Assembly (NCBI GenBank): GCA_031082125.1
Contig: JAVHLM010000022.1
Location: 1 to 64,000 of the forward strand
Direction of reading: 5' to 3'
Length of the DNA: 64,000 bases
Source: Candidatus Eremiobacterota bacterium
GTDB lineage: Bacteria; Vulcanimicrobiota; CADAWZ01; Ess09-12
Positions 49,534-62,951 of this stretch are shown here, in pieces. The notes below the pieces were generated by a model that did not search any database, was not told the origin of the DNA, and was given only the letters and a program-made list of their open reading frames with translations. Made by a program: the position numbers and the translations under genes. Numbering within the stretch: the stretch's first letter is position 1; each line of letters starts with the position of its first letter.

Positions 49534-49616
49534 GTCGAGGAGAAGGGGGTGGTGAGAAGAGGAGCACTGAGAACGAAGAGCGGTCACAGGAAAATGGAGG
49601 TTCCCCCCTCCTTTTT
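49534..49616 (+). ncRNA. candidate short regulatory RNA antisense to the hxsC 3' end
   Basis: The predicted start near 49534 and the terminator ending at 49616 bound about 83 bases. A GTG frame with AGGAG upstream exists near 49550 but would be cut by the terminator, so a peptide is unlikely. The last 33 bases are complementary to the end of the hxsC coding sequence including its stop codon (49584). It might tune hxsC message stability, linking the response-regulator circuit to the hxs operon. Entirely predicted. Confidence 0.4.
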
Positions 49617-50759
49617 CTGCTTTTCGGGAATGGTATCTCCTCCTTTGAAAGGCTTTATCTGTGAAGGCTTCCTGACGGAGGTTCCGAAAAATCCTCCGCA
49701 TGAGGCCTTTTGCGAGCACTCCCCGCATTCAGGGAGGAACATCTTCTTCCAGTCCGAGATGCTGTCACGGGCGAAGGGACGGACCTTTTCGGAAATGAGG
49801 CAGAGGGGGAGATTGTAAAGGGAGACCCTCATCATGCGCTGATTCAAAAAGACTACGGCCTTTTCGAGCGCGCCGCGGTAGTCTGAAGGCTCAACCCATA
49901 CCTCATCGAGATTGGCACAGGCCACACCGGAAGTCTCCATTGCCATGAAAGCTATGTGGACGGCGAAAGGGAAGTTCCAGAAGATGAAATGGGCCAGGTC
50001 GGCGAGGCGCTCTGCATTCTGCCGCACGATAACCACCCGGATCTCGATGGGGCGGCCGTACCTCACCAGGTTGTGGATGCCGGCGACAGTCTCGCGAAAT
50101 GATCCCTTTGCACCGGTGATTGCATCGTGCTCGACATCATTGTCGGCAAAGACGGGGATACAGAAAACAAGTCCCCGCGGGGCGCTTTCAGCAACCCTCG
50201 TGGCCACCTGGAAGTCAGCAAGCCTCCTGCCGTTCGTGAGAAGCTGCACCGGTGACGAGGGAAAGCGCTCCCTCAAAAGGTCCAGAACCTCGACAAGGCC
50301 GTCGAGCACAAGGGTGGGCTCGCCGCCAGTGATGCCGAAGGAGGGAGGCTCCGGGACCGCGAGAAGCCGGAGCATTCTTTTTGCCGTTTCATCGTGATGG
50401 CAGGGATGGGCCTCGGGGGTCTGGGGGCACATGATGCAGCGGGAATTGCAGTAATCGGTGAGATAGAGAGGGTTCTGGCGGGAGCCGGTATCCCAGACAA
50501 GGCTGATACGCCCGTCGGGGTCCACCTTTACGATATCCCCTTCCCTCAGTCGGGTCAGAAAACCGCCGGGGACACTGCAAAGCCCCGTCATCTTTTCATC
50601 TCCCGGCGACGAAGTGATGCAGAAGTCCTCCCTTCCCTGGCTTTCGCCGCATACAAGCGCCGTATCGGCCCTCTCCTTCCGGTGAGCTTTCGGGGTGGTG
50701 GTGATCCGGCGCACCTGTGATGCATCGATGCGGCGGGGAATTCCTTTACTTTCCTTCAT
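49584..50759 (-). CDS. hxsC: His-Xaa-Ser system radical SAM maturase HxsC
   Basis: Starting at MKESKGIPRR (50759), inside the last 14 bases of hxsB, gives 391 residues. The SAM-cluster motif is C104-x3-C108-x2-C111 (TDYCNSRCIMCPQTP), followed by FGITGGEPTLVLDGLVEVL and LLTNGRRLADF. The C-terminal CGECSQKASCGGFF supplies further cysteines. HxsC is one of two paired radical SAM enzymes predicted to act on the His-Xaa-Ser repeat peptide HxsA. Its final codons (EGGTS) encode the stem of a terminator used on the other strand. The long upstream extension of this frame lies antisense-like within hxsB and is not used. Confidence 0.85.
   Translation of the reverse strand: MKESKGIPRRIDASQVRRITTTPKAHRKERADTALVCGESQGREDFCITSSPGDEKMTGLCSVPGGFLTRLREGDIVKVDPDGRISLVWDTGSRQNPLYLTDYCNSRCIMCPQTPEAHPCHHDETAKRMLRLLAVPEPPSFGITGGEPTLVLDGLVEVLDLLRERFPSSPVQLLTNGRRLADFQVATRVAESAPRGLVFCIPVFADNDVEHDAITGAKGSFRETVAGIHNLVRYGRPIEIRVVIVRQNAERLADLAHFIFWNFPFAVHIAFMAMETSGVACANLDEVWVEPSDYRGALEKAVVFLNQRMMRVSLYNLPLCLISEKVRPFARDSISDWKKMFLPECGECSQKASCGGFFGTSVRKPSQIKPFKGGDTIPEKQKKEGGTSIFL
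49596..49616 (+). terminator. intrinsic terminator, possibly bidirectional
   Basis: GGAGG (49596-49600) pairs with CCTCC (49607-49611) across a six-base loop, followed by five T residues (49612-49616). On the minus strand the same stem is followed by ATTTT, so it may also weakly stop hxs transcripts, although it lies just inside hxsC. Confidence 0.55.
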
Positions 50760-52215
50760 CGGGCACGCACCTGAAGCCTTCCCTCTGAATCCATGACCAG
50801 AACACCTCCATGACCCTCTCATCATTCTCGATGAGCTTTCCGAAGAGGTAATCCAGGATCCCCATATTCTTCGTGCAGAACTCGCTCCCCGGCCTTCTTC
50901 CCCTGATATCGCCGCGCTCCACGTAGTAGCGGACTGGATCGGCGCCGCAGTAAGGCTGATACACACACTGGGCGCACATGGGGAGCATCTCGACGCAGCT
51001 TTCACGGACAAGCTCGCGGAGCAGCGGTCCCCCGAAGATCTCGCCGTGGCTCTGGTGAAGCACATTCCCCATAAGGAAGCGCTTGTCGCCCATGCGGGCG
51101 AGCATCCGCCCCTCGTCGGCGGGATAGACCTCGCCGTTGTAGTCATAGACGGCGCCACTTATCCCTGCGCCCGCCGGCGACTGGAGGTCCACGAAGCCCG
51201 TCGAGAAGGGAGTGAGGATCCGCAGGAGCAGGAACTCCGCATAGAGCTCTGAAAAGTAGGTCCCCTTCATGTTCAGCTCGATGAGGTACTCCAGCGCATC
51301 CCTGTAAGCCTCGACGAACTCCCGGGCCGGATAGCCCAGGTGGTCCCGGTTTTTTACGGCAAACCCGTAAGGGTTGAGGCCTCTCAGGAATATGCTCCGG
51401 AATCCCATGCCAAGGTAATGATCTATGATCTCCCTGAGGCGGGTAATGTTATCTCTCGTGATGGTGAGAAGGGCGCTGCAGGACTGGGGATTAATGCTCC
51501 TGCGGTAAAAAGCGAGATTCCTGACGAAACGGTCATAGCTGCTGCCGTTGTCGCGGCTCCTGCGGTGGAGATCATGGAGCTCCTTCGGACCGTCGAGCGA
51601 CGTGGAAAACGCCATCCTGTGCTCCCGGCAGAACTTCGCCCACTTCTCTTCGGCATGGAGCAGGTTCGAGCACACCACGAAATCCAGATACTTCTTCTTT
51701 TTCCTGTTGAGCTTCTCAGCCTTTTTCACGATAAGCTCAATAATGGGCCAGTTGAGCGTGGGCTCGCCGCCCTGGAACTCTATTTTCACTCCCGGAGAGG
51801 GTGAATCAAAAATGACCTCGACCACTTTCTCTGCCACCTCAGGGGTCATATCAAAGCCCTTCGAGGCGGGATCGGTGCTTGATGCCTGGCAATAATCGCA
51901 CATGCAGCTGCAGCGCGCAGTGATTACTACCATGTGAAGAGCGGTGAAATCGCGCATGTAAGCTCTTTTTGAGCGCATCTTCACCGCCATGAGCTCAATG
52001 GCGAGATCGAGATCGTCATCGGCGATAAAATGCCTGCCCTTGAGGGGAAAATAGAGGCTCCCGAGGTCTCCGGGCCTGCGGGCTTCCAGAAGCTGCGAGA
52101 ACTGCCCCTCATCAATGAGGGTGAACTCTCCGTTCAGGTTCACAAGAAGGACCCGGTCGCCGCCGAGCTTCTTGAAATGAAAGGGAAGAAGAGTGAGGGT
52201 GCCGGCTGCGCTCAT
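50746..52215 (-). CDS. hxsB: His-Xaa-Ser system radical SAM maturase HxsB
   Basis: A 489-residue radical SAM protein. An N-terminal segment (LLPFHFKKLGGDRVLLVNLNGEFTLIDEGQF) is the HxsB-type precursor-binding-like start. The cluster motif is C102-x3-C106-x2-C109 (ARCSCMCDYCQASS), then EFQGGEPTLNWPI and the SPASM-like end CVEMLPMCAQCVYQPYCGADPVRYY with EFCTKNMG. It overlaps hxsD by 4 bases and hxsC by 14, so all are co-translated. The chemistry on HxsA is not established; peptide crosslinking or oxidation is expected by analogy. Confidence 0.88.
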   Translation of the reverse strand: MSAAGTLTLLPFHFKKLGGDRVLLVNLNGEFTLIDEGQFSQLLEARRPGDLGSLYFPLKGRHFIADDDLDLAIELMAVKMRSKRAYMRDFTALHMVVITARCSCMCDYCQASSTDPASKGFDMTPEVAEKVVEVIFDSPSPGVKIEFQGGEPTLNWPIIELIVKKAEKLNRKKKKYLDFVVCSNLLHAEEKWAKFCREHRMAFSTSLDGPKELHDLHRRSRDNGSSYDRFVRNLAFYRRSINPQSCSALLTITRDNITRLREIIDHYLGMGFRSIFLRGLNPYGFAVKNRDHLGYPAREFVEAYRDALEYLIELNMKGTYFSELYAEFLLLRILTPFSTGFVDLQSPAGAGISGAVYDYNGEVYPADEGRMLARMGDKRFLMGNVLHQSHGEIFGGPLLRELVRESCVEMLPMCAQCVYQPYCGADPVRYYVERGDIRGRRPGSEFCTKNMGILDYLFGKLIENDERVMEVFWSWIQREGFRCVPDEGK

Positions 52216-52547
52216 TGCTTCTTCTCTTCAACTTCGATGGGGAGAAATGCGTGGCGGTAAAGTATCTCCCGCAGCGCCCCCGTGCGCTTCATCAGGTCAA
52301 GGCGCACCTGCTCTTCAATGATGTCGTTGAGAAGCTCACCGGCGGCTTTCTCGCCCTCTCTGCCATTATTGCCGCCCTTGCATTGAAGGAGCACCGCGTA
52401 AGACTGTTCTCCACAGGGCTCCACTTTCACATAGAAGAGCTCATTAAGCTTCTGTGCGGCCGTAAAAACTGCTTCGCGCTCATAGAGCAGAGATGAGACT
52501 TCAACGCGGTAAAGATCGGGAGAGAGCTTTTCCACTATGTGTTCCAT
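52212..52547 (-). CDS. hxsD: His-Xaa-Ser system protein HxsD
   Basis: A 111-residue protein. It opens VEVSSLLYEREAVFTAAQKLNELFYVKVEP, then CGEQSYAVLLQCK, and ends with ELLNDIIEEQVRLDLMKRTGALREILYRHAF. That last part corresponds to the LLNDYxLRE hallmark from which HxsD was named. HxsD is small, has no catalytic motif, and may bridge precursor and maturases. The ATG has GGAGG upstream. It lies between hxsA (51 bases) and hxsB (4-base overlap), the standard order. Confidence 0.82.
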   Translation of the reverse strand: MEHIVEKLSPDLYRVEVSSLLYEREAVFTAAQKLNELFYVKVEPCGEQSYAVLLQCKGGNNGREGEKAAGELLNDIIEEQVRLDLMKRTGALREILYRHAFLPIEVEEKKQ

Positions 52548-53810: not shown

Positions 53811-56800
53811 TCATTCCCCTGATGGCTTCTCCTTATTTTCAAGCCGCATCAGGCTCTCGCGGGCCTCCCGGTAATCCGGCCTGAGCTCCAGGGCCTTCCT
53901 GTAGTCAGAAATGGCGCCCTGCAGGTCTCCCAGTTTCTCTCTCGTCACAGCCCTGTTAAACCAGCCCAGGGTATAGTCTCCCCGAAGGGAGAGAAAACGG
54001 GTAAAATCCTCTTCCGAAGCCTTGTACTCGCCGAGCCTGAACCTGTCAAGAGCCCTGTTGTAAAAAGCCTCTGCAAAATCTTCGATGTGCTTCAGCGCTC
54101 CGGTATAATCGGCGGCGGCAGCGACATAGTCACCCAGGGCGTCTCTTGCAACGCCGCGGTTATAATATGCTTTTCCGTTGGAGGGCTGAAGGCCCAGCAC
54201 CACGGAGTAATCTTCTACGGCCTTCCCGTACTCCTTCAGATCCACCCGTGCCAGGGCGCGCCGGTAGTAAGCATCGGCATAGTCAGCACGCATCGCTATA
54301 GCCTTGGAAAACTCCGCTTCGGCTCCCTGGTGATCGCCTGCCTGGCTCTTCTCAATGCCTTTTTGGAAGAAAGCCCCGGCATTGCCGCGGTCCGCTCCGG
54401 TGGAAGGCACCTGGGAAGTCGGGACGGCGCCCTGGGGGAGCTTCCACCAGGGAGTGCCGGTATATGACGAACGCTCCGGCCTGGGAAGGGGACTGCCCGG
54501 GACAAGAGTGAGCGCCTCGCCGCACGAAGCCTTCACTTCCTCGCCTGTGGCAGTTTTCTTGACGGTGACCGTGCCTTCAACAACCCTCACTGAAGTCTCC
54601 TTCCCCTTCCCCGCATCGATGACAAAACTGGTGCCCGAAGGGGTGACGGTAGCCTCTCCATCGGCTGAAACGGCGCCGGCATTCACGAACTGAGCTTTCC
54701 CGAACTCCACCTGCACGTAGTTATAATTTTCAGAGATCTTGATGCGGTGAGCCCCCGGTCCCAGGGATACCCATTTCTTCTCGCCGTTCTTGAAATAGCC
54801 GTCCTTGAATCCCTGGAAAGCCACGGTGACTCCTTCAGGGACCTCGATGATGTCATCTTTTTTAAGCTCCATCGAGGAATTGAAACTCACAGGCCTTCCA
54901 TTTCTTGTGACTTTTACTGACTTCATGGCATCAGGGCTCGCTGCCAGGCCTTCCCATACGTTGGATGCCTTTATTCTATACTGTGAGGCAAGCTCGGAAA
55001 GGTCGCCGTCATACCTGATGCCCGGCTTTTTGCTGTTCAGCTTCACGTCAAGGAACTCCTCGATGCTTCTCGCCGGGGTGATGGAAGTCCAGAAGGCCTC
55101 ATGCTCCCTGATGGTCTTTGCAAAGTCCCTGTACACCTTCTGGGGGTCATCGAGATCCTCCCTGTAATAAGCCGAAAGGAAGCTCGCAATGTTCCCCTCG
55201 ATGACATTGCCGTCTGCCACGTATTTCGATGCCGCCTCGCCCGACATCTTTGCATTGTCAAAGTTTATATCATATTCCCCTTTCTGGGATTTATAGAAGA
55301 GCTGGGCAAAAAACTCGGCCGAACCCTCCTCGAAGGCGAGCTCCTTTGACTCGTCCTGGGCAGGAACCCACGTGTTATGCCCCCCCCCTACATATTTCCC
55401 CATGAGGGGGTAGCCTTTCACATAATAACCTGAGGGATCCACAAGGGTGTCCATAATGAGATGGCCTGTCTCGTGGGCCATGACCCTCCTTATGCTCTCC
55501 AGCTCCTTTACATACTTCACTGAAGAGCCGTTTATCTGGATCTCCTTGTTCATCGGGTCATAGGCCGGTGTCGATACCGCCGCGTTGAAATTGATCTTCG
55601 CCTTGAGCACCGCCTCCGCTTCTTGTGAGGAGAAGCCTCCCTTTTTCAGGAAATCGGCCATATCCTTCTTGAGCTTCTGCACATAACTCTCCAGGGAAGT
55701 GCAGAGGACCTTCACCTCGGCGGGCACCGTGGCCTGCCGGGTAAAGATGAGGAAGTCGGGATCCCTGAATATCACGTTCACCTTCCGCCCTGCCGGGAAT
55801 GGCACAAAGGCCGTGCCGTCCTCGCCGCTTGTGACGGTTTTGTCGGCGTCTTTTCCATTCATTGCATAGGTGAGCTTTATCTTCTTCCCCGCCATGGGAG
55901 CTTCATTTTCATCGCATACGAGAAGCTTCAGCCCCACAGTGGTCGTGAGCCTGAGGGTCGCCGAGCCTTCGGCCGTTTTCCCGCTCGAAGCATCACTGGC
56001 CTTGCAGGTAAACACCAGGGGCACCTCGGGTTTTGAGGCGAATTCCTCCACCTCTTCTGCCTTTGGCGCCGTCACGGAAAAAGAAAGGCTCCCGGAGCCG
56101 TCGGTTTTCCCGCTTAACGGCAAAAGACCGGGAGCCTTCAGGGAGGGGCTCACCGTTACAGGGATCGATGCCGCGGCCTTTCCTTGAGGATCGGTCACTT
56201 TGATTGTGAGCGTCGCCTTCGAGCGGCCATCGGCGGGGACGGTATCGGGAGCGACAGCGGCCTTGAGAGTGAGGGCCCGCGGTGCCTCCCCGCCCGGCAG
56301 GCCCAGCAGGTACCGGTAGAGCCCGTCAACGTAGGCTTTTGTAGGAGTCTGGACAGAGGTGAAGCTTCCCTGGTCCTGGGCAAAGACATGGACCACCAGG
56401 GTGCCCTTGAGCAGCATCGCGTAGTGTGCCTGGATATGGGGCGAGCGGGAGGGCTGGGGCGCCAGGAATATCTGCACCGTACCCTTCGCATCCCTGCCAA
56501 GCTCCACAGGCTCTGTCCTCACGTTGTCTCGCGGGTCTTCCCAGCCGTGGAGGTAATCGGTGACATATTTATACTTGTCCTGATATTCGCTGAGAGCCTT
56601 TTCCTTGGACTTGTTCACCGTTATCTGCACGATGACCTCGCTGAACCCGTCATTGAGTTCCTGGCTTTTCGGATGAGTCATGAGATGGTATTTTATGCCG
56701 AACTCTCCTGGCTCATAGTCATACTCCCAGCACTCAATCTCCTTCACCGTGTTGAAATTTCCCATTCTGAAGAAATAGGGCGCGAAGCGCTTCGGTATCT

Positions 56801-56900
56801 TTGATATCTCTGTTCCCCTGTATTCCTCTCCGCAGGCGATGGCCTGGAGCAGGATAGAGAAAAGGGCGCCAAACAGCAGAGCTTTACCGTGCTTTTTCAT
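53811..56900 (-). CDS. large secreted protein: Ig-like domains, zincin motif, FecR-like domain and TPRs
   Basis: The 1029-residue protein has a signal peptide (LLFGALFSILLQAIACG). Residues about 205-320 look like a Big-1/Ig-like sandwich (VPADGRSKATLTIKVTDPQGKAAASIPVTV). Near 475-490, RVMAHETGHLIMDTL is an HExxH zinc-protease helix, followed by EEGSAEFFAQL as a possible third ligand region. Residues about 740-800 (GTSFVIDAGKGKETSVRVVEGTVTVKK) are a FecR-like beta domain. The C-terminal 170 residues are about five TPRs. The combination is unusual. It may be an envelope peptidase or scaffold; proteolysis is unproven. Confidence 0.75.
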   Translation of the reverse strand: MKKHGKALLFGALFSILLQAIACGEEYRGTEISKIPKRFAPYFFRMGNFNTVKEIECWEYDYEPGEFGIKYHLMTHPKSQELNDGFSEVIVQITVNKSKEKALSEYQDKYKYVTDYLHGWEDPRDNVRTEPVELGRDAKGTVQIFLAPQPSRSPHIQAHYAMLLKGTLVVHVFAQDQGSFTSVQTPTKAYVDGLYRYLLGLPGGEAPRALTLKAAVAPDTVPADGRSKATLTIKVTDPQGKAAASIPVTVSPSLKAPGLLPLSGKTDGSGSLSFSVTAPKAEEVEEFASKPEVPLVFTCKASDASSGKTAEGSATLRLTTTVGLKLLVCDENEAPMAGKKIKLTYAMNGKDADKTVTSGEDGTAFVPFPAGRKVNVIFRDPDFLIFTRQATVPAEVKVLCTSLESYVQKLKKDMADFLKKGGFSSQEAEAVLKAKINFNAAVSTPAYDPMNKEIQINGSSVKYVKELESIRRVMAHETGHLIMDTLVDPSGYYVKGYPLMGKYVGGGHNTWVPAQDESKELAFEEGSAEFFAQLFYKSQKGEYDINFDNAKMSGEAASKYVADGNVIEGNIASFLSAYYREDLDDPQKVYRDFAKTIREHEAFWTSITPARSIEEFLDVKLNSKKPGIRYDGDLSELASQYRIKASNVWEGLAASPDAMKSVKVTRNGRPVSFNSSMELKKDDIIEVPEGVTVAFQGFKDGYFKNGEKKWVSLGPGAHRIKISENYNYVQVEFGKAQFVNAGAVSADGEATVTPSGTSFVIDAGKGKETSVRVVEGTVTVKKTATGEEVKASCGEALTLVPGSPLPRPERSSYTGTPWWKLPQGAVPTSQVPSTGADRGNAGAFFQKGIEKSQAGDHQGAEAEFSKAIAMRADYADAYYRRALARVDLKEYGKAVEDYSVVLGLQPSNGKAYYNRGVARDALGDYVAAAADYTGALKHIEDFAEAFYNRALDRFRLGEYKASEEDFTRFLSLRGDYTLGWFNRAVTREKLGDLQGAISDYRKALELRPDYREARESLMRLENKEKPSGE

Positions 56901-57062
56901 AGGGATTGACCTCCCGGGAAGATTATTGCCTCAAGGGGAATTCTCCCCCGCGGTGCAGCGCCCCTCTTCTCCTGCCTCCTGACTCCTTCTTGAAAAAGGA
57001 AAGCATCACGATGAGAGAGAATTCTTTGACCACATCCCCTTATTACCACACGGGAGGCGCCC

Positions 57063-59033
57063 ATGCTCACCCTCTCGGCGGAGCTGAGCCGCAGGCTCAT
57101 TGCCCGCGGCTCTCCAGGCAGGATATTTGTCCTTTTCAGGATAACGGCACCCTCCGTGGAAGTCTCCCGGAAGCCCCTCAACATCGCCGTGGCTCTAGAC
57201 CGGAGCGGTTCCATGAAGGGAGGAAAGCTCGACTATGTCAAGCATGCGACGGCGTTCCTCTTCTCGCAGCTTCTCAACACCGATATCTTCTCCCTTGTGA
57301 CCTTTAACCACCTGGTGCAGGTACCTTTCCCTGCAGGGGAGGCCAGGGAGAGGGATGCCATAAGGAGAGCCATCAGCTCCATAGAGCCCCAGGGGATGAC
57401 CAACCTTTCCGGGGGGTGGCTCGCGGCACTCCAGGAGGTCCTCAAGCATTCAGGCCCCGAGAGGCTCAACAGGATCATACTTCTCACCGACGGCATCGCC
57501 AACGAGGGCATCACCGATCCCAGTCGCCTTTTCAATATAGGAGCGCACACGGCAGAAAAGGGCGCCGTCACGACAGCCATGGGAGTCGGCTCCGACTTCG
57601 CCGAGGACCTCCTGAAAGGGATCGCCGAAGCCGGGCACGGGAACTATTATTTCATAGACAACCCGGAGAAGGCACCGCGCACCTTCTCTGAAGAACTCAT
57701 GGGCCTCCTCGCCCTCTATGCCCAGAACCTCACCATTGAGTTCACCCCGTCGGAGAACGTGCAATTCGTCGACCTCCATCATGACTTTCCCCTCACCATG
57801 AGAGGAAAGGGCTGCGAGATCAGCCTCGGAGACCTATACGGAGGCGATGAGCGCACCGTGCTTATTGAGTGCCTTGTGACGGAATCCCCGGCAGACGGCA
57901 TCATGGAGCTTGGTAAGGCGAAGCTCGCTTATCACCGGATACATGAGGAAATCTCGAGAGGAGAGGTCTCCCTTGCCCTGCAGGTCACCTGCACTGATGC
58001 ACGGGCTGCGGCAGCGGAAGCCATCAACCCTGCCGTGGAGAGGGAAATCGTGATCTGTGATGCCATCAATGCGAGGAGAAAAGCGGTCCGCGAGGCAGAT
58101 CAGGGCTCTTTTTCCGGTGCCAGGAAAAAGCTTTCTGACTCCATATCGGGCCTCCAGAGCAGCGTTTATTCCCATGACGAGACGGTAAGCCGCGAGATTG
58201 AGAAGCTTGAAGGGCTGCTGGGCAGCTTTTCTGACAGCGGCTCCTACCAGTCCATCGGGAGAAAGGAAGCTCTTTACCAGAGCTTCTACATCTCCAGGAA
58301 AAAGGGCCACTCGTCGGTGAACCGCACCAGAATCATCGGCTGGAATGCCGTGGAGGCCCTCAAGAATGCCCGTTCCGTCACCGTCATCACAGGAGCGGGC
58401 CTCCCGATGGAGTGCTCCATCCCCGGCGTCCGCGGCGTTACCGAGCTCATAGAGGGGGAAGAGCTGATGATCTTCAATGCAGAGACATTCAGCGCCCACC
58501 CTGATGCAGTATGGAAGCGGATCAGGACAGTGCAGGAGGAGGTCATCAGGCTCCCCGTGCCGGAATGCTACCGGATCATCGCCGAGATGGAAGAGTTCTG
58601 GAAAGACTTCCGCCTCATCACCGAAAATGTGGACGGGATGCATTCCATTGCCGGCAACACCGGAATAACGGAGCTCTTCGGCAATATCTTCAAAAGCTGG
58701 TGCCCCGCTGAAAAAAAGGCCCGGGAGGCAAGAGCTGACAGGAAATGCGCCTGCGGCGCCACCCTCAGGCCGGCAGTCCGCTGGCTCGGAGAAGAGCTGG
58801 AAGATCAGGTTCTTGAACAGATGAGAGGGGCTCTCACGGGGAGAGGCATCATATTCCTCATAGGCACGCACTTCCGGAGGAACACGGAGCTCATTGTAGA
58901 TGCAGCCCGCAGCGGCGCCACTCTCGTGGAGATCAATGCCGCGGAGACGGCTTTTTCCTCCCTTGCGGCGGAGCATATAAGGAGAGATATAAGGAGCGCC
59001 CTCCCGGAGCTCTGGACTGAGGTGAAGCGCTGA
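57063..59033 (+). CDS. von Willebrand factor A domain fused to a degenerate sirtuin (SIR2) domain
   Basis: GGGAGG precedes the ATG. Residues about 38-220 are a vWA domain with an intact MIDAS (D46-R-S48-G-S50, MTNLSG, ILLTDG). A beta-sandwich and helical linker follow. From about 438 the protein becomes a sirtuin: TVITGAGLPMECSIPGVRG (NAD loop), LITENVDGMHSIAG, a Cys cluster (SWC, KCACG), LRPAVRWLGEEL and IGTHFRRNTELI. The catalytic His of the usual E-L-H-G is Phe (ELFG, about residue 539). NAD binding may persist while deacetylation is probably lost. No signal peptide, so cytoplasmic. I know of no described protein with this fusion. Confidence 0.8.
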   Translation: MLTLSAELSRRLIARGSPGRIFVLFRITAPSVEVSRKPLNIAVALDRSGSMKGGKLDYVKHATAFLFSQLLNTDIFSLVTFNHLVQVPFPAGEARERDAIRRAISSIEPQGMTNLSGGWLAALQEVLKHSGPERLNRIILLTDGIANEGITDPSRLFNIGAHTAEKGAVTTAMGVGSDFAEDLLKGIAEAGHGNYYFIDNPEKAPRTFSEELMGLLALYAQNLTIEFTPSENVQFVDLHHDFPLTMRGKGCEISLGDLYGGDERTVLIECLVTESPADGIMELGKAKLAYHRIHEEISRGEVSLALQVTCTDARAAAAEAINPAVEREIVICDAINARRKAVREADQGSFSGARKKLSDSISGLQSSVYSHDETVSREIEKLEGLLGSFSDSGSYQSIGRKEALYQSFYISRKKGHSSVNRTRIIGWNAVEALKNARSVTVITGAGLPMECSIPGVRGVTELIEGEELMIFNAETFSAHPDAVWKRIRTVQEEVIRLPVPECYRIIAEMEEFWKDFRLITENVDGMHSIAGNTGITELFGNIFKSWCPAEKKAREARADRKCACGATLRPAVRWLGEELEDQVLEQMRGALTGRGIIFLIGTHFRRNTELIVDAARSGATLVEINAAETAFSSLAAEHIRRDIRSALPELWTEVKR

Positions 59034-59121
59034 GGGAGCGGGACCTGCCATGGAGGAAACAAGACCCCGGGAAAGAAGCATGGAGAGAGTATGTGAAGAG
59101 ATCACGAAAGGATGTGAATCC

Positions 59122-59898
59122 ATGCAGAGAGTGACCTGGAGTATTTTCACCGCCCTGGTGTTCTGTTTTCTTCCGGCCGGGTGGTGCCTTGCCGCAGACT
59201 ATGACATCTATATCAAGAATCACCAGTATACAGGAAAAGTGATAAGGCAGAACAAGGAGATCTTCATAGAGCTGGAGAGCCTTGCGAAATTCGCCGCCCT
59301 CACCCTTGAGCAGAAAGGGAAGGCCTGGCAGCTCTCAGTCTCCTCGCCGGGAGCTCCGAAGGAGGCCCTGCCTGAAGCCAGTGAGGGGTTCTGGATCAAT
59401 GGCGCGAAATCTGACATCACTGTCATATCTGACAGCGGAAAGCCTTATGTGCCCCTGAAGAGAACTGCCGACGCACTGGGCGCCCTCTATTCAGAAAACA
59501 GCCAGACCGGCATCATTGATGTCACTTTCCCCAAAAAGGGTATGACCGCAAAGGATTACCAGAAAGCTTCCGAAAAAAAACCTTTCAGCTTCGTCTTTTT
59601 CTACATGGGATCAAACGAGAATCCCACAATGAAATCTTCACTGGCGGCGGTGCAGCACCTGCAGGCAAAATTCAGCGACCAGTTCACTTTCAATCTTGTA
59701 AACATGGAAGACCGCGACAAACCGGAATATTCTCACTTCTTCAAGTCGGGGCCCCTGGGAATCCCCCCTTTGATAAGGATCTATGACAAGAACAACAAAG
59801 TAGTATACACAAAAAACGGCGCTTTCACCGCCGATGAAATCGGAAGGATCCTTACCTCCTTCACCACGCTTGAAAAGCCCAAGGAAAAAGAGCGCTGA
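59122..59898 (+). CDS. secreted protein with copper-amine-oxidase-N-like and thioredoxin-like domains
   Basis: ATG 59122 (AAAGGATGTG upstream) gives a signal peptide (WSIFTALVFCFLPAGWCLA). Residues about 25-145 follow the copper-amine-oxidase N-terminal pattern (FIELESLAKFAALTLEQKG, PYVPLKRTADALGALYSEN), a beta-rich cell-envelope module. Residues about 160-255 resemble a thioredoxin fold (FSFVFFYMGSNENPTMKSSLAAVQHLQAKF, GPLGIPPLIRIYDKN) with the cis-Pro region but without a CxxC, so not a disulphide enzyme. It follows the vWA-sirtuin gene by 88 bases, convergent with the glycosidase-like gene. Confidence 0.65.
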   Translation: MQRVTWSIFTALVFCFLPAGWCLAADYDIYIKNHQYTGKVIRQNKEIFIELESLAKFAALTLEQKGKAWQLSVSSPGAPKEALPEASEGFWINGAKSDITVISDSGKPYVPLKRTADALGALYSENSQTGIIDVTFPKKGMTAKDYQKASEKKPFSFVFFYMGSNENPTMKSSLAAVQHLQAKFSDQFTFNLVNMEDRDKPEYSHFFKSGPLGIPPLIRIYDKNNKVVYTKNGAFTADEIGRILTSFTTLEKPKEKER

Positions 59899-61365: not shown

Positions 61366-61508
61366 AGCTCTCCCCCCTTTCCTGAAAATCATTCCCCGGA
61401 GCCTCTCAATGATCCTCTTGCATGCGGCAAGGAAGGATTTCAAGGCCCGGGGAGATAATAGACAATGGCAGCGCAAAGCCCTGGGGCGCGCGGAAAGGGG
61501 TGGGTCAG

Positions 61509-62951
61509 ATGAAGGTTGTCCTTGCAATCGAAGAAGGTCCGGGCGGTACTGAGCGCTTCGAGTTTGACGGCCATGACACTTTCATCGTGGGGCGCTCCAG
61601 GAAAAACACCCATTCACAGCTTCGCGGCGATCCTTACATCTCACGCCATCACTTCATCCTGGAGCTCTCCCCTCCCCGGTGCTTCCTGAAAGACCTGGGG
61701 AGCACCAACGGCACCAAGGTGAACGGCAGGCTCATCGAGAAGGGGGAGCTTAGGGAGCTCTCCCCCGGCGACACCATCAACGTGGGGAGGACAATGCTCA
61801 GGCTCACCCTTGAAGGCGATGCCCCCGGTGGAATGAGCCTCCAGGGGGAGAGGGCTGCAGAAGCTCATCTTCCCGAAGCACCGGACGATGATCGGGAGGA
61901 ATCTGCCACCTTGCTCCAGGCCGAGCCTGCCGCCTTCACCGGAGCTGAAGCCCCCGCTCCTTCGGCGCTTCACTGCAGCCGCTGCGGCAGGGAGATTGAG
62001 CCCCCGGTGAAACCGGAAAACCTCCCCGATTCCATTTTTCTCTGCGAGCACTGCATCCCGCCCGGCGAGCCTGCGAAAAGCGGCAGAAGCGAGGGAGACT
62101 ATGAGCTCTACTCACTCCTCGGGAGAGGAGGCATGGGAGAAGTCTTCAAGGCCCGCAACAGCAGGACCGGCATGCTTGTGGCGTTCAAGAGGCTCACCTC
62201 GTTTTCCAGCATCAATGATGAGACTCTGCGGCGCTTCACCAGGGAGATGCATGTCATGAGGGAGCTTGTCCATCCTAATATTGTGAGGTTTATCGGCCAT
62301 GGCCAGGGAAAAGAGGGCCACTACCTGGTGATGGAGTATGCGAGCAGGGGGAATATCTCCGATCTCATCGAGAAAGAGCTTCTCGGCCCCCTCCCCTACC
62401 CCCGGGCATGCAGGCTCATCTGCCAGGCCCTGGAAGGACTTCAGTTCGCCCACTGCAAAGGATTCATCCACAGGGACATAAAGCCCCAGAATCTCCTTCT
62501 CCACGGGAGCGGCAGCGACACCGCAGCCAAGATAAGCGATTTCGGGCTTGCCAAGAATTTCCAGGAGGCCGGCGGCTCCATGATGACCAAAGAAGGGGAA
62601 GTGGCAGGAACCATCCTCTTCATGGCACCGGAACAGCTCACTAATTACCGCTTTGTGAAGCCCCCCGCCGATGTGTACTCAATGGGGATGAGCCTCTACT
62701 ATCTCCTCTCGGGCAAATATCCCTTCGCTTTCCCCTCACCGCTGGACCTCATCAGGAACACGCCTCCTGAGGGGCCCCGGACCGATCCCATCCTGCTGGT
62801 GCTGAGTGAAGAGCCTGCACCCATAGAAAAACACTGCCCCGCCCTTCCCCCGGCCCTTGCAGCCGTCGTGAACAAGTCCATCTGCAAGGACGAGATGAAG
62901 CGCTTCGCTTCGGCGGAAGAGCTTCGGACAGCTCTCCTGATGGTGTTTTAG
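61509..62951 (+). CDS. FHA-domain Ser/Thr protein kinase
   Basis: ATG 61509 (AGGGGTG upstream). Residues about 20-95 are an FHA domain (FIVGRSRKNTHSQLRGDPYISRHHF, LGSTNGTKVNG), which binds phosphothreonine. A linker holds a two-Cys-pair ribbon (HCSRCGREIE, LCEHC). From about 200 the kinase domain runs: LLGRGGMGEVFKA, VAFKRL, HRDIKPQN, DFGLAKN, APEQL. All catalytic residues are present. There is no transmembrane helix, so it is a soluble kinase with its FHA in cis, an arrangement suited to autophosphorylation control. It is convergent with the WD40 gene and divergent from the glycosidase gene. Confidence 0.93.
   Translation: MKVVLAIEEGPGGTERFEFDGHDTFIVGRSRKNTHSQLRGDPYISRHHFILELSPPRCFLKDLGSTNGTKVNGRLIEKGELRELSPGDTINVGRTMLRLTLEGDAPGGMSLQGERAAEAHLPEAPDDDREESATLLQAEPAAFTGAEAPAPSALHCSRCGREIEPPVKPENLPDSIFLCEHCIPPGEPAKSGRSEGDYELYSLLGRGGMGEVFKARNSRTGMLVAFKRLTSFSSINDETLRRFTREMHVMRELVHPNIVRFIGHGQGKEGHYLVMEYASRGNISDLIEKELLGPLPYPRACRLICQALEGLQFAHCKGFIHRDIKPQNLLLHGSGSDTAAKISDFGLAKNFQEAGGSMMTKEGEVAGTILFMAPEQLTNYRFVKPPADVYSMGMSLYYLLSGKYPFAFPSPLDLIRNTPPEGPRTDPILLVLSEEPAPIEKHCPALPPALAAVVNKSICKDEMKRFASAEELRTALLMVF

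Follow-up and report, generated by a model that had tools for sequence, protein, structure and literature searches.

The gene at 57063-59033 of the window, the 64,000-nucleotide stretch of DNA analysed here, joins a von Willebrand factor A (vWA) module to a sirtuin-fold domain with replaced catalytic residues. From sequence comparison and predicted structure we favour, with moderate confidence, the reading that its product acts inside the cell as a scaffold of phospho-signalling and uses a non-catalytic pseudo-sirtuin as a binding domain. The gene and its domains are located as follows.

57052-57057, forward strand: Shine-Dalgarno-like GGGAGG, 5 nt upstream of the ATG (from the sequence)
57063-59033, forward strand: vWA-pseudosirtuin fusion gene, 656 aa, a single open reading frame without internal stop
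57168-57677, forward strand: vWA domain, residues 36-205 (Pfam; invariant MIDAS columns)
57717-57995, forward strand: beta-sandwich, about residues 219-311, together with the N-terminal strands 7-28 (AF2 model; ArnB/ArnE architecture)
58002-58310, forward strand: helical bundle, about residues 314-416 (AF2 model)
58332-59030, forward strand: sirtuin-fold domain, residues 424-656, catalytic residues replaced (Pfam, alignment, AF2 and PDB comparison)

The vWA-SIR2 fusion is a real architecture. Pfam assigned VWA to residues 40-203 (E 6e-18) and SIR2 to residues 444-602 (E 9.9e-14), both well over the curated cut-off. NCBIfam sirtuin models matched residues 429-655 (1.7e-37), a score under the strict cut-offs of these models. 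The MIDAS is intact, its residues D46, S48, S50, T113 and D143 showing no variation across the module alignment. The initial annotation was therefore right in describing an intact MIDAS-type vWA domain joined to a sirtuin domain. It had also considered a frame error joining two genes. A sequencing or frame artefact is excluded, because a second full-length copy with both domains (C25:101288-103258) is encoded elsewhere in this genome of 7.43 Mb and 69 contigs; the two copies share 44% identical amino acids over residues 1-654. Codon-position GC is equal on either side of the vWA/SIR2 junction, which also speaks against a gene chimera. A promoter scan found sites no more numerous than in shuffled sequences.

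Residues 1-420 are more than a bare vWA domain. The full-length AF2 model contains a vWA domain, a beta-sandwich and a helical bundle in this order; its pTM is 0.42, so the packing of the domains against each other is unreliable. A profile of the module, compared with the PDB, matched ArnE/vWA2 of Sulfolobus first (5a8j, 1.8e-23) and ArnB third (8s05, 2.7e-22), both matches spanning the vWA and reaching into the sandwich. Foldseek matches included 4fx5 and 8s05; the VIA matches listed were occupied by the sirtuin half. ArnB consists of vWA, beta-sandwich and helical bundle, and the eukaryotic Sec23/24 have the same core (PMC6509490, PMC12852372). The fusion protein shares the MIDAS vWA, the sandwich and the C-terminal helical bundle, in the same order, with ArnB, ArnE and the Sec23/24 core. 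In ArnB, Ser/Thr kinases (ArnC) phosphorylate the helical bundle and the zinc-finger/FHA protein ArnA binds (PMC6509490, PMC12852372). Whereas ArnB stops after the helical bundle, the fusion protein continues with the pseudo-sirtuin. An RK..YQS motif lies near the end of the bundle, and other partner domains of relatives attach after this motif. The vWA part had been proposed as a binding switch. This is plausible and can be narrowed to an ArnB/Sec23-24-core-like module of kinase/FHA systems.

Two genes follow the fusion gene on the same strand.

59050-59898, forward strand: gene of an exported protein, weakly matched as thioredoxin-like, 16 nt downstream of the fusion gene
61422-62951, forward strand: FHA and Ser/Thr protein kinase gene, further downstream, with a minus-strand gene between

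No kinase gene directly adjoins the window copy, and the link of the fusion to the downstream FHA-kinase gene is weak. The paralogue closes a same-strand row of a kinase (492 aa), a second kinase (1321 aa) and the fusion gene, separated by 18 and 20 nt; the row is operon-like. A peroxiredoxin gene comes after it. A third module gene of the source genome is unfused (contig C7) and lies in a row of kinase, kinase-PP2C with zinc ribbon, vWA and zinc-ribbon-FHA. The resemblance to the gene set of ArnB and ArnE concerns this related module gene: Ser/Thr kinase genes and that of a candidate FHA/zinc-finger partner surround the C7 gene, whereas the paralogue has kinases only. The row on contig C7 recurs in genome G006, and the conserved order of kinase, kinase-PP2C, vWA and zinc-ribbon-FHA is located at:

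L041:4347-9674, forward strand
L092:6324-11551, reverse strand

In its encoded domains, this bacterial row corresponds to the archaeal ArnA/B/C set. On the upstream side of the window copy, a TPR protein of 1029 aa with a Big_1 domain is encoded at 53811-56900 on the reverse strand, divergent from the fusion gene. The stretch 49584-52547, also on the reverse strand, holds two adjoining radical SAM genes together with a gene for a small protein that has no Pfam match (52212-52547); it may be a peptide-modification locus.

Structure prediction of the C-terminal part, proposed in the initial annotation, returned a sirtuin fold. The AlphaFold2 model of residues 405-656 had a pLDDT of 85.5 and a pTM of 0.84, from an input alignment of 18 viral-contig sirtuins that are ordinary sirtuins and so bias the model towards this fold. 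Its best PDB match was Sir2Af1 with ADP-ribose (1m2g; Z 26.2, rmsd 2.3 Å over 230 residues), and SIRT5, PfSir2A and other solved structures matched as well. By sequence alone, phmmer arrived at the same sirtuin structures (7.5e-20). The domain has the SIR2 Rossmann fold with a zinc ribbon and is, in the sequence search against solved structures, nearest to the CobB/SIRT5/Sir2Af1 deacylase branch. Structures of class M sirtuins, ThsA and pAgo were absent from the PDB sequence and fold matches listed, an absence that carries no weight as evidence.

To compare the active site, the SIR2 parts of the two fusion proteins were aligned to 32 stand-alone sirtuins from their phylum. The relevant positions in the window are:

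58392-58400, forward strand: GAG loop, residues 444-446, present in the window copy and absent from the paralogue
58623-58634, forward strand: E521-N522-V523-D524, the TQN-D motif with Gln replaced by Glu (Glu in the paralogue too)
58677-58679, forward strand: F539, where 32/32 stand-alone sirtuins have the catalytic His and the paralogue has Asn540
58701-58754, forward strand: zinc-ribbon segment C547xxE...C562xC564, the form of the nearest active-looking sirtuins

Several residues that are invariant in all 32 stand-alone sirtuins are replaced. The catalytic His of xLHG, expected in an active sirtuin deacylase, has given way to Phe (window copy) or Asn (paralogue). In place of the TQN Gln, both copies have Glu. 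The Phe of the FR motif is Val and Ile, the Ser of GTS is His and Ala (window copy and paralogue, respectively), and the His of PNxxH is Tyr in both. The acyl-pocket Tyr, present in 31/32, is Ile in both copies. In these residues the fusion differs from the CobB/SIRT5/Sir2Af1 deacylases, with which it shares the fold, the GAG loop, the Asn and Asp of TQNxDG and the type of zinc ribbon found in their nearest bacterial members. Both copies retain R457, T520, N522, D524, G525, H527, E537, T602 and N625 (window numbering); among 55 columns conserved to at least 85%, the window copy keeps 32 and the paralogue 30. The replacements E521, M526, I487, Y503 and N532 are common to both copies and are therefore probably older than the duplication of the fusion gene. 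The initial annotation had noted the Phe, the GAG loop and the NVDG motif; the alignment agrees, the motif reading TENVDG at residues 520-525.

The zinc ribbon, which it called incomplete, is no sign of decay. The segment reads CPAE...KCACG. CxxE in place of CxxC occurs in four stand-alone sirtuins, the closest ones included, and three of these four also have CxC, alongside an intact His (for example, CTRE...CECG and CVRE...CACG). Because the closest His-keeping relatives have the same form, decay of the ribbon was ruled out.

With the catalytic His, the ribose-contacting Gln, the FR-loop Phe, the GTS Ser and the acyl-pocket Tyr all replaced, deacylation and NAD cleavage by the sirtuin part are both very improbable. 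Loss of the His alone is no proof of inactivity, as class M sirtuins with Gln in its place are active (PMC4518038). Ligand binding is another matter. Solved Sir2 His mutants carry ligands according to their entry titles, NAD in H116Y (2h4h) and ADP-ribose in H80N (1m2j), so an aromatic residue or Asn at this position is compatible with ligand binding. The sirtuin part may accordingly still bind NAD or ADP-ribose; the candidate ligand could also be a modified protein or merely a protein surface.

The same module carries other partner domains. Fusions to an ADP-ribosylglycohydrolase domain were found in 13 proteins from 6/97 related genomes (L012, L020, L128-L140). All 13 fused domains lack the metal-binding motifs GD, TDD and GNG-Asn, whereas among the stand-alone ADP-ribosylglycohydrolases of the phylum (n=27) the key residues are conserved to ≥96%. 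DxDT has disappeared or can no longer be recognised, in columns that align poorly. By these motifs the fused domains look clearly dead. A Synechocystis protein encoded on plasmid pSYSA (WP_011153729; L076:7929-9695, forward strand) has the same module with a partner at the same junction; unlike in the window copy, a Macro domain (1.8e-38) replaces SIR2 and a MerR gene precedes. CRISPR-associated csx2 and RAMP genes are located nearby on the same plasmid. In a module protein encoded on Deinococcus ficus pDFI2, the C-terminal domain, about 70 residues long and without a Pfam name, is duplicated (L077:5986-7845, forward strand).

In the module tree, the SIR2 pair (100/99) and the glycohydrolase clade (98/97) are separate from the Macro protein, which groups with an unfused cyanobacterial protein (98/94). 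The three fusion types stand apart with unfused proteins between them, and the partners were apparently acquired by separate fusions. Of the four partner types found, three have NAD/ADP-ribose folds, the fourth being the duplicated domain of D. ficus; this tally is based on a limited sample, without a formal null model. As the partner domains are dead in the commonest case, these NAD/ADP-ribose-type tails probably bind something and perform no chemistry. A second pseudo-sirtuin line of the phylum, by its residues, is an unrelated SIR2-GGDEF-like fusion in five genomes of family f12 (L080:6354-7760, reverse strand; orthologues in L081-L084), with the catalytic His replaced by Ala, Ala, Tyr, Asn and Asn in the five orthologues.

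The sequence itself shows the domain architecture, the residue losses, the duplication of the gene, the separate fusions and the kinase row of the paralogue; the lack of catalysis, the role in signalling and the ligand are inferred from it. In the favoured scaffold reading, residues 1-420 would form a bacterial ArnB-like module with the vWA as a metal-dependent protein-binding domain. Ser/Thr kinases and FHA proteins would act on this scaffold, as in Sulfolobus ArnB. The pseudo-sirtuin (residues 424-656), most likely non-catalytic, would bind NAD/ADP-ribose or a protein, either a modified one or a partner, and would steer or gate the scaffold. Its slot holds a dead ADP-ribosylglycohydrolase in some relatives and a Macro domain in Synechocystis.

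Alternatively, the C-terminal part could be a leftover sirtuin whose fold alone is kept, for structural purposes or protein interaction, and which has no small-molecule ligand. This seems unlikely, though the uneven divergence of the two copies speaks for it. The SIR2 parts share 33% identical residues, the vWA domains 56%. The SIR2 part has a dN of 0.79 and a dS of 1.34, against 0.36 and 2.85 for the rest, values that are saturated. As the faster-evolving part, it may be drifting or purely structural. The GAG loop is lost in the paralogue, which makes NAD binding doubtful there, and fused domains have repeatedly lost catalytic residues, as in the ADP-ribosylglycohydrolase and SIR2-GGDEF-like fusions. 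Conservation of the pocket between the two copies gave no significant enrichment, the best-conserved block being residues 521-550 (p 0.09). The retention of N522, D524, R457, T602, N625 and the GAG loop in the window copy argues against a mere remnant, as does the repeated choice of NAD/ADP-ribose folds for the same position.

The sirtuin part could also be an enzyme still, with a changed mechanism, ADP-ribosylating or processing a partner that the vWA module brings to it. We consider this improbable. The precedent is given by class M sirtuins (SirTM), active ADP-ribosyltransferases with Gln for His that also need Asn118 (PMC4518038). The His is replaced in both SirTM and the fusion, and the window copy keeps N522, D524, R457 and the GAG loop. 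However, the replacing residue is Phe or Asn rather than Gln; the pocket Gln, Phe and Ser are gone from both copies, and the paralogue has no GAG loop. A macrodomain, GcvH-L or lipoate ligase (LplA2) gene, as in the SirTM operon, was absent among the window ORFs and in the neighbourhood of the paralogue. The parallel ADP-ribosylglycohydrolase fusions, which look clearly dead, point in the same direction.

SIR2 NADases are common in defence and need the catalytic His. An antiphage role, in which the SIR2 part would deplete NAD on infection with the vWA part as trigger, is very improbable: PADLOC found nothing, defence genes are absent around both copies, the sirtuin is of the deacylase branch, and it retains Asn522 and has lost the His of the catalytic Asn-His pair of defence NADases (ThsA, pAgo-SIR2, DSR). 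The defence NADase reading of the initial annotation was abandoned on these grounds. What speaks for such a role comes from the relatives. ADP-ribosylglycohydrolase (ARG)-centred systems with vWA chaperones are predicted to be anti-viral (PMC9503650) and likewise tie vWA proteins to ADP-ribose enzymes. Among 14 plasmid relatives inspected (cyanobacteria, Deinococcus), a MerR gene precedes 13; a PARG gene adjoins one, that of D. ficus, and a dual-specificity-type phosphatase gene follows another.

L146:2291-5067, forward strand: MerR-vWA-PARG row of D. ficus
L145:2339-4960, forward strand: MerR-vWA-phosphatase row of D. deserti

These rows fit the ARG-centred systems predicted in PMC9503650. 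The sirtuin and ADP-ribosylglycohydrolase domains of the module fusions, by contrast, are dead and belong to the vWA protein itself, and no ADP-ribosylglycohydrolase, phosphatase or Nudix/WYL regulator gene of such systems lies beside the window copy or the paralogue.

The vWA-SIR2 fusion has so far been found in the source genome only, by searches that were shallow beyond the phylum. None was present in 97 relatives of the phylum, in which the source genus and family are represented by one genome. Beyond the phylum, the search covered plasmids, phages, viral contigs and one genome-contig scan. Plasmids and phages gave no match covering at least 80% of the query, and the scan, of low sensitivity with a few peptide patterns, found a vWA relative in Cytophagales only. 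Macro domains gave 0 matches at the listed vWA places of the phylum. The proposed search for the same fusion in other genomes yielded the other fusions of the module, and no second genome with vWA-SIR2 among the 97 relatives. The initial annotation knew of no protein of this architecture; in the open-access papers searched, the vWA-pseudosirtuin fusion is likewise not described.

The pattern over three partner domains is more interesting than the single vWA-SIR2 fusion. That one module was fused separately to a Macro domain and to dead versions of a sirtuin and an ADP-ribosylglycohydrolase suggests a link between Ser/Thr phospho-signalling and NAD/ADP-ribose recognition. We propose tentatively, as a possibility and not as the expected outcome, that the C-terminal slot of a family of bacterial ArnB/Sec23-24-core-like phospho-scaffolds is repeatedly filled by non-catalytic NAD/ADP-ribose readers that gate kinase/FHA signalling. 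If so, the gating signal would be the NAD level or ADP-ribosylated or acylated partner proteins. Fused bacterial pseudo-sirtuins as binding domains have no description in the open-access literature searched. The archaeal ArnA-ArnB pair is tied by these findings to the bacterial set of kinase, kinase-PP2C, vWA and zinc-ribbon-FHA, which would make an ArnB-like role testable outside archaea.
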